Below are positions 45,117-51,687 of a stretch of 64,000 nt of DNA, one piece after another. The stretch is from Nonomuraea angiospora (lineage in GTDB: Bacteria > Actinomycetota > Actinomycetes > Streptosporangiales > Streptosporangiaceae). The stretch covers positions 10,354,001-10,418,000 of the forward strand of contig NZ_JADBEK010000001.1 in NCBI RefSeq assembly GCF_014873145.1, given 5' to 3'. Under the pieces are notes generated by a model. It did not search any database, was not told the origin of the DNA, and saw only the letters and a list, made by a program, of their open reading frames with translations. Every line of letters starts with the position of its first letter. Positions within the stretch are counted from its first letter, which is position 1. The position numbers and the translations under genes are program-made.

Positions 45117-47462
45117 ATGAGCACCGCAAGCTTCCCCGAGGGTTTCGTGTGGGGAGTCTCTACCTCGGCCTTTCAAATCGAGGGCGCCACGTCCGCCGGC
45201 GGCCGGGGGCCGTCCATCTGGGACGTCTTCTCCGCCGACCGCGCCGAGGCCTGCGACCATTACCACCGCTATCCCGAAGACGTGCGGTTGATGAAAGACC
45301 TGGGAATGGCCGCCTACCGGTTCTCGGTGAGCTGGCCGCGGGTTTTCCCCGACGCCTCGGGAAAGGTGAACGAGGCCGGCCTCGACTTTTACGACCGGCT
45401 GACCGACGCGCTTCTCGCGGCCGGCATCACGCCTTATGCGACCCTTTATCACTGGGATCTGCCGCAGGCGGTGGAGGAGCTCGGCGGCTGGCCGTCCCGC
45501 GACACCGCCCGCCGTTTCGCCGACTACGCCGCCGCCGTGCACGGCCGGCTCGGCGACCGGGTCGACACCTGGTTCACGCTGAACGAGCCCTGGGTGGCGG
45601 CCTTCCTGGGATACGGCGACGGAAGCCACGCGCCGGGCCGCAAATCGCCCGCCGAGGCGTTCCAGAGCGCCCACCACATGATGCTGGCGCACGGGCTGGC
45701 CACGCAGGCCCTGCGCTCCGGTGGGGCGGCCCGGGTCGGGACGGTGCTCAACATCTCGCCCGTCCTGACGCCCGCCCAGGTCAGCGACTTCGACAGGCAG
45801 CTGTCGGAGGAGGACGCCGAGGCCGTGGCCAGGATCGACGCCCTGGCCAACCGGCAGTTTCTGGAGCCGATGCTGCGCGGCTCCTACCCCGCCGAGATCC
45901 TGCCCATCATCGAACGCAACGGCGGCCTCGGCCACATCCGCGACGGCGACCTCGACCTCATCGCCCAGCCCCTCGACCTGCTCGGCATCAATTACTACTC
46001 GCCTTCCGTGGTGCAGGCCCAGCCCAGCGAGCCCGCCGCCCCGGCCTATCCGGGAAGCGAGGGCGTGCTGTTCTGCACGATTCCGACGGCGGTCACCGCG
46101 ATGGGCTGGCCGATCGTGCCCAATTGCCTTTCGCTGGTGCTGCGGCGCCTTTCCGCGGAATATCCGGAGCTCGATCTGATGGTCACCGAGAATGGCGCCG
46201 ACTTCGTCGACGTGGTGACCGGGGACGGCATTCACGACGTCGAGCGCATCAGTTTCGTCGAGGAGCACCTGCGGGCCCTGCTGGCGGCCGTCGAGGACGG
46301 CGCCCGCGTTCGCGGATATCTCGTCTGGACCCTGCTCGACAATTTTGAGTGGACCGAGGGTTACCAGCGGAAGTTCGGCCTCGTGCACGTCGATTTCGCC
46401 ACCCAGAAACGGCGGCCCAAGGACAGCGCGCTGTGGTACCGCGACGTCATCCGGCGCAACGGCCTCACCGAGACCCGGCCCAAGCGGCCCACCCTGGAGA
46501 CCGTCGCCGCCCGCTCCGGCGTCTCCCGCGCCACCGTCTCGCGGGTGGTCAACGGCGAGGCGTCGGTGAGCCCCGAGGTTCGCACGGCGGTGATGCGGGC
46601 CGTCAAGGAGCTCGGCTACGTGCCCAACGCCGCCGCCCGCAGCCTGGTCACCCGGCGGACCAACGCCATCGCCCTCGTCCTGTCCGTCCCCAGGCAGGGG
46701 GACGCGCTGACGGCCGCCGTCGTCCAGTACGTCACCAGCATGCTGGAGGGTGCGGGCAAGCAGATCACGCTCATGCTGGCCGACACGGCCGAGAGCCACC
46801 GGCGCATCGTCCAGCAGGCGGAGGCCCGGCTGGTGGACGGCGTCGTCCTGCTGCCGCCCGACCGGGGCGACACGCTGGCCGAGCGGCTCTCGCGTACGGA
46901 CGTGCCGATCGTGCTCCTCGGCAAGCCGGCCGTCGCCTCGCTGGTGCCGTACGTGGACGTGGACAACGCCGGCGGCGCCGCCTCCGCCACCGAGCACCTC
47001 CTCGCGGGCGGGCGCCGTCGCATCGGCATGATCTGCGGCCCGATGGACCTGGTCGCCGTCCAGGACCGCCTGGCCGGGCACCGGGCGGCGCTGCAGCGGG
47101 CGGGCGCGCAGCCGTTACTGGCCCTGGCCGACCTCACCCGCGCCTCGGGCGCGGCGGCGGCCCGGCAGCTCCTCGGCGACGAGCCGGCGCTGGACGCCGT
47201 GTTCGCCGCCACCGACCAGCTCGCCATCGGGGCGCTGCAGGCCGCGCGGGAGCTGGGCCGCCGGGTGCCCGAGGACCTGGCGATCGTGGGCTTCGACGAC
47301 ATCGACGCCGCCTCGGCCACCACGCCGGGGCTGACCACCGTGCGGGTTCCGCTGGCGGAGCAGGCGCTGGCCGTCGCCCGGCTGCTGCTGTCGCGGCTGG
47401 AGGGCCGTCACACCACCTCCGTGGTGCTGCCGACCCGGCTCGTGGTCAGGGAGTCGAGCTGA
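45117..47462 (+). CDS. Fusion of GH1 beta-glucosidase and LacI-family repressor
   Basis: 781 residues in one frame, ATG 45117 with GGAGGG ten bases upstream. Residues 1-447 are a complete GH1 enzyme: FPEGFVWGVSTSAFQIEGA, acid/base Glu157 in TLNEPW, nucleophile Glu358 in VTENG, and LLDNFEWTEGYQRKFGLVHVDF. After a linker of about ten residues, 457-781 form a LacI repressor: PTLETVAARSGVSRATVSRVVNGEASVSPEVRTAVM, hinge VPNAAARSLVTRRT, and a periplasmic-binding-type domain ending GFDDIDAASATTPGLTTVRVP. No ATG or GTG lies between the parts that would let the repressor be made alone. In relatives bglC and celR-type genes are adjacent but separate. It would hydrolyse cello- or laminari-oligosaccharides in the cytoplasm and bind DNA. 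Confidence 0.9.
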   Translation: MSTASFPEGFVWGVSTSAFQIEGATSAGGRGPSIWDVFSADRAEACDHYHRYPEDVRLMKDLGMAAYRFSVSWPRVFPDASGKVNEAGLDFYDRLTDALLAAGITPYATLYHWDLPQAVEELGGWPSRDTARRFADYAAAVHGRLGDRVDTWFTLNEPWVAAFLGYGDGSHAPGRKSPAEAFQSAHHMMLAHGLATQALRSGGAARVGTVLNISPVLTPAQVSDFDRQLSEEDAEAVARIDALANRQFLEPMLRGSYPAEILPIIERNGGLGHIRDGDLDLIAQPLDLLGINYYSPSVVQAQPSEPAAPAYPGSEGVLFCTIPTAVTAMGWPIVPNCLSLVLRRLSAEYPELDLMVTENGADFVDVVTGDGIHDVERISFVEEHLRALLAAVEDGARVRGYLVWTLLDNFEWTEGYQRKFGLVHVDFATQKRRPKDSALWYRDVIRRNGLTETRPKRPTLETVAARSGVSRATVSRVVNGEASVSPEVRTAVMRAVKELGYVPNAAARSLVTRRTNAIALVLSVPRQGDALTAAVVQYVTSMLEGAGKQITLMLADTAESHRRIVQQAEARLVDGVVLLPPDRGDTLAERLSRTDVPIVLLGKPAVASLVPYVDVDNAGGAASATEHLLAGGRRRIGMICGPMDLVAVQDRLAGHRAALQRAGAQPLLALADLTRASGAAAARQLLGDEPALDAVFAATDQLAIGALQAARELGRRVPEDLAIVGFDDIDAASATTPGLTTVRVPLAEQALAVARLLLSRLEGRHTTSVVLPTRLVVRESS

Positions 47463-50062: not shown

Positions 50063-50245
50063 ATGTGCAAGGCCCGCGCGTCGGGCGACAACGGTGGTGA
50101 CTGCGTCGAGGTGGCCCCGCTCTCCGGAGGCCGCGTCGCCATGCGGGACAGCAAGGACAAAGATGCGGGGCCCGTCCTCGTGTTCACCGGGTCGGAGTGG
50201 GCGGCCTTCAGGGACGGGATGAGCAAGGGCGAGTTCGACTTCTAG
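50063..50245 (+). CDS. DUF397 protein
   Basis: 60 residues from ATG 50063; the sequence ASGDNGGDCVEVAPLSGGRVAMRDSKDKDAGPVLVFTGSEWAAF then KGEFDF is unmistakable DUF397. The usual start WRKSS is replaced by MCKARASG, so the first residues may be altered or the true start may differ. DUF397 genes normally accompany an XRE-family (HTH_31) regulator; none is beside it here, although a decayed XRE remnant is 13 kb away. Its function is probably that of a small regulator partner. Confidence 0.75.
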   Translation: MCKARASGDNGGDCVEVAPLSGGRVAMRDSKDKDAGPVLVFTGSEWAAFRDGMSKGEFDF

Positions 50246-50343: not shown

Positions 50344-50372
50344 TTGCCCATACCGATACGTAGTCTTATGGT
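50344..50372 (+). promoter_or_regulatory. Promoter of the imiditide locus
   Basis: TTGCCC (50344-50349), 17 bases, TATGGT (50367-50372). Transcription would start about 30 bases before the precursor gene, leaving room for the GGGAGG ribosome site at 50398-50403. Confidence 0.6.
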
Positions 50373-50410
50373 CACGCTGAGAAGTCGCTTTGATGATGGG
50401 AGGCCCCGGC

Positions 50411-50527
50411 GTGGGCAAGCACGAAGGTGACAAGAAGAAGGACAAGCCCTTCAAACCGGAGCCGGTCAAGCCTCAGCAAGGTGACAAAAACCCAAGTGGC
50501 GGCCAGCACGGCGGCAGTAAGAAGTGA
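50411..50527 (+). CDS. Imiditide-type RiPP precursor peptide (Lys-rich)
   Basis: 38 residues from GTG 50411, chosen because GGGAGG ends seven bases before it; in-frame ATGs at 50393 and 50396 would give 44 or 43 residues without a good site. It begins MGKHEGDKKKDKPFKPEP and ends QHGGSKK. Ten Lys, three Asp (7, 11 and 25, all in DK pairs), no Cys, and many Pro and Gly. Its TGA overlaps the GTG of the PIMT-like methyltransferase gene (GTGA, 50524-50527). In imiditides a lone PIMT-like enzyme methylates one Asp of a linear, strongly positive precursor, and the ester closes to an aspartimide. Which Asp is used here is not known. Confidence 0.75.
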   Translation: MGKHEGDKKKDKPFKPEPVKPQQGDKNPSGGQHGGSKK

Positions 50528-51687
50528 CACCGCAGAACGTTGGGCAGCGGATCGAGCAGATGATCTCGGAAATTCCGCCGGCCGCTCAACGTACTGAACG
50601 CATCTTCGACGCGATGCGGGCTGTGCCCCGCCATCCCTTCATTCCCGGGTATGCGCAAGCTCTTCTCGGCGCCGCAGAGGTCGAGCAGATCATCGACCGT
50701 GACGCCGACCCGGAAACATGGTGGAACGCCGTCTACAGCGATTCCGTGATCGTCACCCAGGTCAGCGACGGGGCAGGCGAGATCATGCCGGGCTCGAACG
50801 ACCCCACCTCCTCGGCATCCGCGCCCAGCACGGTCGCGGACCTGCTGGGATGGCTGGATCCGGTGCCAGGACAGAGCGTGCTGGAGGTCGGCACCGGCAC
50901 CGGCTGGACCGCCGCGTTGCTGTCGCATCTCGTCGGCGAGCACGGGGCGGTGACGACGATCGAGGTGGACGAGGCCGTCGCCGAGCAGGCGGCCAAGAAC
51001 GTGGCCGCGGCCGGAGCCCAGCCACACATGATCATTGGTGACGGCGCGAAGGGCTGCCCGGACCGTGCGCCGTTCGACCGGGTTCACGTCACGTGTGGCG
51101 TCCGCATCGTGCCCTATGCCTGGCTCGAGCAGACCAGGCCTGGCGGCGTGATCGTGCTGCCGTACTGCCCGGGACTCGGAAACGGACACGGGCTGCGGCT
51201 CACCGTGATGCCGGACGGCATCGCCCATGGCCGGTTCCCGGGGTTCGCGGCGTACATGATGATGCGCTCCCAGCGCCCGCCCGATGCCATCCCGGACGAC
51301 GGTAACGGCCAGGACCTCACCACCCGGATCGACCCGCGCACGATCGCTTATGCTCCCGCAGGCGCGTTGCTCGCGATGGCCGCCCTCACGGGCTTGCAGG
51401 TCACCTTCAAGGAGGAGGGCGAGCAGCTCTTTCTATGGGTGATGGACCAGAGCGATCCTGGCGTCTGGACGCTGATCACCTACGCGCCCGGTCATCAGGA
51501 ATATGAGGTGTACCAGCTCGGCGACCGTCCCCTGTGGGACGAGGTCACAGACGCCTACTTCCGCTGGGTGAGCTGGGGAGAGCCAGGCCGCGACAGATTC
51601 GGCATGACCGTCACACCCGGCGGGCAGCGGATCTGGCTCGATTCCCCAGGGCGCGCGATTCAGCGCCCATTGCCACACGGAAGATAG
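50524..51687 (+). CDS. PIMT-like O-methyltransferase of an imiditide locus
   Basis: 387 residues from GTG 50524. The first about 220 residues match protein L-isoaspartate methyltransferases: QRIEQMISEIPPAAQRTERIFDAMRAVPRHPFIP, SAM motif VLEVGTGTGWTAALLSHLVG, EQTRPGGVIVLPY. The C-terminal 150 residues are an extension ending RDRFGMTVTPGGQRIWLDSPG, the kind of C-terminal region that marks PIMT homologues working on RiPPs in lanthipeptide, graspetide, lasso and imiditide clusters. No lanthionine, ATP-grasp or lasso cyclase gene is near, and the preceding gene encodes a Lys-rich peptide, so an imiditide methyltransferase is the best assignment. Confidence 0.85.
   Translation: MTPQNVGQRIEQMISEIPPAAQRTERIFDAMRAVPRHPFIPGYAQALLGAAEVEQIIDRDADPETWWNAVYSDSVIVTQVSDGAGEIMPGSNDPTSSASAPSTVADLLGWLDPVPGQSVLEVGTGTGWTAALLSHLVGEHGAVTTIEVDEAVAEQAAKNVAAAGAQPHMIIGDGAKGCPDRAPFDRVHVTCGVRIVPYAWLEQTRPGGVIVLPYCPGLGNGHGLRLTVMPDGIAHGRFPGFAAYMMMRSQRPPDAIPDDGNGQDLTTRIDPRTIAYAPAGALLAMAALTGLQVTFKEEGEQLFLWVMDQSDPGVWTLITYAPGHQEYEVYQLGDRPLWDEVTDAYFRWVSWGEPGRDRFGMTVTPGGQRIWLDSPGRAIQRPLPHGR

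Follow-up and report, generated by a model that had tools for sequence, protein, structure and literature searches.

A two-gene locus of Nonomuraea angiospora that very probably encodes an imiditide, with Asp25 as the predicted modification site

Imiditides, or type I pamtides, form a known class in which a small precursor gene lies directly beside a homologue of protein isoaspartyl methyltransferase (PIMT), and 1414 type I pamtides have already been counted in print. In NmaA, the precursor from Nonomuraea maritima, the modified Asp is followed by His, and aspartimidylation is still seen when the first 20 residues are removed (passages of PMC13001092). An acidic DEDGD loop has been described in the C-terminal domain of its partner enzyme, NmaM. 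Passages of PMC13001092 also give WXXXGXP as a motif of the PIMTs associated with ribosomally synthesised and post-translationally modified peptides (RiPPs), and report an extra C-terminal domain that is absent from the canonical PIMTs E. coli Pcm and human PCMT1 and present in that of Thermotoga maritima. Here we describe the architecture, conservation, homology, predicted fold and conserved Asp site of such a locus in a 64,000-nucleotide stretch of N. angiospora DNA (hereafter, the window), which covers positions 10354001-10418000 of a 13.09 Mb genome in a single contig. The imiditide reading of this locus is well supported by its sequence features, and by analogy the enzyme very probably converts one precursor Asp into a reactive ring. 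We put the probability of a two-gene imiditide (type I pamtide) unit with D25 modified to aspartimide at roughly 0.86.

The precursor gene lies at 50411..50527 on the forward strand and runs from a GTG start codon (50411-50413) to a TGA stop codon (50525-50527), with a ribosome-binding site, GGGAGG (50398..50403, +), read 7 bases ahead of the GTG. Its translation from the GTG, MGKHEGDKKKDKPFKPEPVKPQQGDKNPSGGQHGGSKK, is a linear peptide of 38 aa with 10 Lys, 7 Gly, 5 Pro, 3 Asp and no Cys, for which we computed a net charge of +5, a pI of 9.8 and an average mass of 4112.6 (with Met). The three Asp residues stand at positions 7, 11 and 25, each with Lys on its C-terminal side. A preliminary description of this DNA had already pointed to the Lys-rich frame, its ribosome-binding site and its three Asp-Lys pairs, and all of these are borne out by the sequence and its translation. 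The window has 424 stop-bounded frames containing an open reading frame (ORF) of 25-80 aa, and only two of them reach at least 20% Lys, namely the precursor (26%) and one other (21%). NCBIfam and Pfam scans of the peptide gave no match, and a protein-database search with its 42-aa N. cypriaca ortholog found zero database proteins with three shared words.

The second gene (50524..51687, +) encodes a PIMT-like (PAMT) methyltransferase of 387 aa. It starts at the GTG at 50524 and shares the four bases GTGA with the precursor gene, so that the precursor stop falls inside the methyltransferase start codon, as had been proposed. The enzyme has a predicted PIMT fold and a Pfam PCMT match, a computed net charge of -19 and a pI of 4.8, and it is 57% identical to the Nonomuraea maritima enzyme P0083, which carries the DEDGD loop. 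Residues 348-354 read WVSWGEP (51565..51585, +), an instance of WXXXGXP. The predicted model, for which 59 of 120 listed homologues were aligned together with the window protein, aligns with T. maritima PIMT (1DL5) across both domains, from residue 9 to 375. The sequence RFGMTVTPGGQRIWLDS, previously noted as closing the C-terminal extension, is present; the enzyme does not stop there, and PGRAIQRPLPHGR comes after it. In the proposed comparison with imiditide methyltransferases, the enzyme agrees in its identity to P0083 and its WXXXGXP motif, and the DEDGD loop is only partly kept.

With the exception of the acidic loop, of which only part is retained, the locus shows the features by which the class is recognized in sequence: a small precursor gene directly beside a PIMT homologue; a PIMT with the extra C-terminal domain (in the predicted fold) and WXXXGXP; a linear, Cys-free precursor rich in Gly, Pro, Asp and Lys, of 38 aa against about 45 aa in the class; and, in the alignments of relatives, a highly conserved Asp near Pro/Gly. 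The match to imiditides drawn in the preliminary description therefore holds for layout, precursor type, enzyme features and conserved Asp, and the chemistry is predicted by analogy. Its claim that no other RiPP enzyme is present agrees with our Pfam scan of eight ORFs around the pair, located between 44540 and 55289, other ORFs there being unscanned; these eight include no primary RiPP enzyme of another class, no ATP-grasp ligase, and no protease or exporter. We also considered three related classes. Type II pamtides, or cysimiditides, require two CXXCXGXG motifs, and the precursor cannot hold this zinc motif because it has no Cys. A graspetide with PIMT was rejected on the lack of ATP-grasp among the scanned neighbours and on a TIGR04188 (graspetide-related) score below the cut-off. 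The lanthipeptide FxLD methyltransferase model TIGR04364 scored 136 bits against a cut-off of 320. The locus hence adds one example to a described peptide family, and the predicted site D25 is its new specific point, since the preliminary description made no choice among the three Asp.

In N. jabiensis, the locus and both flanks are kept, with an enzyme 94% identical and an additional stretch of about 1.4 kb downstream. The N. cypriaca enzyme is 79% identical, and only the pair and about 30 preceding bases are shared with the window, since DNA similarity starts at 50380 and stops at 51641 over the 11 kb compared. On small numbers of changes, the ratio of non-synonymous to synonymous substitution rates (dN/dS) of the precursor was 0.15 between the window and N. 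cypriaca (10 synonymous and 9 non-synonymous changes) and 0.27 between N. jabiensis and N. cypriaca; the enzyme gave 0.28 and 0.34, respectively. The highest precursor value among eleven pairs was 0.88 (L032/L050; L numbers denote fetched loci of enzyme relatives). The precursor also differs from that of N. cypriaca by an indel of 12 bases that leaves the frame intact, and this, with the ratio of 0.15, indicates that the small frame is conserved in relatives.

Relatives of the enzyme were found in 37 of 54 genomes in a scan of the genus (E up to 1e-40) and in 119 of 250 in a scan of the family (1e-60). Our first set comprised 76 distinct loci (80 fetched, of which four were duplicates), and a Lys/Gly-rich peptide-like ORF lies near the enzyme start in 55 of them. 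The 21 others comprise eight behind a radical-SAM-like gene, three behind an ATP-grasp-like end, five with short enzymes of the third-copy kind described below and five with nothing, the radical-SAM-like and ATP-grasp-like calls being made by eye without a domain search. A later set gave such a peptide at 35 of 41 distinct new loci (43 processed, two duplicates), and the filter may have missed some at the other six. The genome of N. angiospora itself holds a second complete pair (L002; 57%) with a peptide of its own, an identical GTGA overlap and an upstream box similar by eye. A third enzyme (L003, 10462535), of 286 aa, has no peptide gene, has lost most of the C-terminal domain, and shows altered motifs around the S-adenosylmethionine (SAM) site; enzymes of this kind, without the same part of the domain, are kept in four inspected genomes (L003, L081, L083 and L084). 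In L066 (=L124), the enzyme N-terminus is joined in frame to the front half of a precursor, apparently via a deletion (compare L065). The eight radical-SAM/SPASM-like genes ahead of PIMT (L015, L047, L067, L070, L072, L077, L079 and L080) end in a Cys/Pro/Gly-rich tail whose Asp positions vary. According to passages of PMC10787088, 249 radical-SAM-PAMT pairs without a found precursor have been counted. We suggest that the tail of the radical-SAM protein itself may be the substrate.

The alignments point to D25 (codon 50483-50485) as the modified residue, since it is the one of the three Asp that stands at a conserved site. In a first alignment of 46 peptides, one internal column holds Asp in 41 and Glu in five. 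Scored by its distance to a conserved Gly (G31 in the window), an Asp lies 5-8 residues ahead in 41 of these 46 peptides (19.1 expected) and in 34 of 35 peptides fetched afterwards (15.2 expected), the expectations coming from shuffling the residues from position 6 to the conserved Gly. The first set is the one in which the site was noticed, and the counts are not probabilities because related loci are not independent; several rows are near-identical (e.g. L099/L102, L107/L108 and L125/L127), and duplicates (L019, L020, L068, L087, L104-L106, L118 and L124) were excluded. Of the 55 peptide-like ORFs, L041 and L034 (short) and L043 (broken frame) were dropped, and L012, L016, L017, L026, L078 and L085 were not entered; Asp before Gly-x-His/Arg is present in L012, L016, L017, L078 and a second frame of L043. 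The row of L082 begins at an internal Val (GTA), four residues after the true frame start, which leaves the scored site unaffected.

Six aligned peptides lack the site Asp (L071, L073-L076 and L100), and all six have Asn-Gly at the site. For L071 and L073-L076, Glu was at first considered the modified residue and was then rejected, because a gap-free count from GGGR, with L030 (KDQQGGGRH) as the supporting comparison, puts the Asn of Asn-Gly there; L100 shows Asn-Gly separately. In L116 and L117, Asn-Gly takes the place that Asp-Gly has in L123, and another Asp follows two residues later. By eye, the Asn-Gly precursors (L071, L073-L076, L100 (=L118), L116 and L117) represent at least three lineages. 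Imides classically form spontaneously at Asn-Gly. That the window pair belongs to a wider family whose selected product is the imide or isoaspartate (isoAsp) itself is a tentative idea that we consider rather unlikely; such a family would reach it by two routes, through an Asp that needs activation by the enzyme (D25) or, in the six aligned relatives lacking the site Asp, through a self-closing Asn-Gly that the enzyme then recycles. If this were true, the enzyme would essentially serve to send one residue through the imide again and again rather than to make a single addition. Precursors with Asn at the site are not described in the main-text passages on Asn and deamidation of PMC13001092 and PMC10787088.

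By analogy with NmaM and SpaM, we propose the following course for translation, reaction, modification site and the role of charge at this locus. The two genes would probably be translated together via the GTGA overlap. The acidic enzyme (-19) would bind the basic, linear peptide (+5) in a charge-guided manner, partly by its C-terminal domain, and would methylate the D25 side chain, with SAM as methyl donor. The resulting methyl ester would close on the K26 amide to give an aspartimide (-18 Da), which would slowly open to isoAsp or Asp. The positive charge of the class is suggested to point to membranes in passages of PMC13001092; nothing at the locus bears on this.

Two other explanations were weighed. 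The locus could encode an imiditide whose modified residue is D11 (in KKDKPF) or D7, with D25 conserved only for recognition. The D11 column does hold Asp in 46 of 81 peptides, and L071 and L073-L076, in which the D25 site has no Asp, retain KKDVP. However, the close relatives L021, L023 and L002 have His, Tyr or Leu at D11 and keep the Asp at the D25 site, D7 is Asp in only 15 of 81 peptides, and the dispensable first 20 residues of NmaA also argue for a site further on; we thus regard this explanation as improbable. Somewhat less probable still is that the enzyme repairs proteins or acts on another protein and that the peptide is a translational leader or a chance ORF. The PIMT fold and Pfam PCMT match would suit such a role, as would the relatives without such a peptide (21 of 76 loci, and six of 41 with the filter as described). 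Against it stand the low precursor dN/dS and frame-preserving indel relative to N. cypriaca, the similarly built peptides at 55 of the 76 loci of the first set and 35 of the 41 of the later one, and the extra C-terminal domain, which is absent from E. coli Pcm and human PCMT1 and present in T. maritima PIMT; moreover, 11 of the 21 peptide-less loci, by eye, represent other contexts of the enzyme clade.

Several observations weigh against an imiditide modified at D25. In the enzyme, KEEGEQ replaces the DEDGD of NmaM, with EEGE aligned to the loop, so that its acidic character is kept only in part; this comparison also depends on P0083 being NmaM, which we infer because species and loop match. 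The Foldseek TM score to 1DL5 is 0.54 by query length, with an rmsd of 7.7-8.2, and the part of the model past residue 251 is barely tested by the rows of its VIA-align alignment. Between the window and N. jabiensis, the precursor shows four non-synonymous and no synonymous differences, which give no ratio and alone show no sign of constraint. In an 81-row alignment, the Asp of these low-complexity peptides is split over neighbouring columns, and therefore scoring relied on the spacing between the Asp and the conserved Gly; a first anchor rule, which chose wrong anchors and was replaced, gave 35 of 46 (22.7 expected) and 25 of 34 (16.4 expected). Lys follows the site Asp in only five of 75 peptides, which makes D25-K26 an uncommon pair. 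Finally, four of the nine left-out rows (L026, L034, L041 and L085), which look shortened or degenerate, have neither Asp nor Asn-Gly at the site.

Upstream of the pair, a promoter-like box, TTGCCC-N17-TATGGT, was read at 50344..50372 (+). The pattern, drawn up after the sequences had been inspected, matches 17 of the 48 stretches upstream (0.2 expected from mononucleotide shuffles), and it misses L010 and L002, though the boxes there are similar by eye. Because it fits only two of 35 later-fetched stretches (0.12 expected) and is confined to near relatives, a family-wide conserved promoter was rejected. A lone DUF397 gene (50066-50245, +) lies directly upstream; its end also occurs in N. jabiensis and is missing from the N. 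cypriaca stretch. Elsewhere in the window, a single 781-aa open frame (45117-47462, +) joins a GH1 beta-glucosidase (4-449) to a LacI-family repressor (459-781), and a stop-free match across both parts was found in 46 of 53 Nonomuraea genomes.

The locus would add a further imiditide that is compact and can be tested, has a clearly predicted site and carries the uncommon Lys at n+1. Its relatives amount to a set of natural substitutions around the predicted modified residue, Asn-Gly among them, and could show whether selection keeps Asp methylation or the imide product. The preliminary description called the function open, in agreement with passages of the 2026 review PMC13001092, where linking aspartimidylated RiPPs to biological function is the bigger challenge; the window locus alone leaves this question unsolved.

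Among known systems, NmaA/NmaM resembles the window locus in its two genes, basic linear precursor, PIMT C-terminal domain and WXXXGXP, and in the 57% identity of the window enzyme to P0083, taken as NmaM. The near-identical locus L040, which adjoins a 96% match of P0083, also has an Asp in the corresponding position: Asp28-His29 lies at the conserved site, with a second Asp-His (39-40) at a non-conserved one. The two systems differ in precursor length (38 aa for the window peptide against 46 aa in L040, taken here in place of NmaA), in the residue after the Asp (Lys against His) and in the loop noted above. SpaA/SpaM of Streptomyces sparsogenes, a type I pamtide from another genus, was likened by description, without sequence alignment, and shares the two-gene unit, conserved Asp and linear precursor (passages of PMC10787088). 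The PIMT of T. maritima is not described as RiPP-associated in passages of PMC13001092 and PMC10787088; its structure aligns with the window model over nearly the whole length, whereas the sequence match is confined to residues 93-214. Type II pamtides, or cysimiditides, share the two-gene unit and the enzyme clade (passages of PMC10787088) and carry CXXCXGXG, whereas the window precursor is Cys-free.
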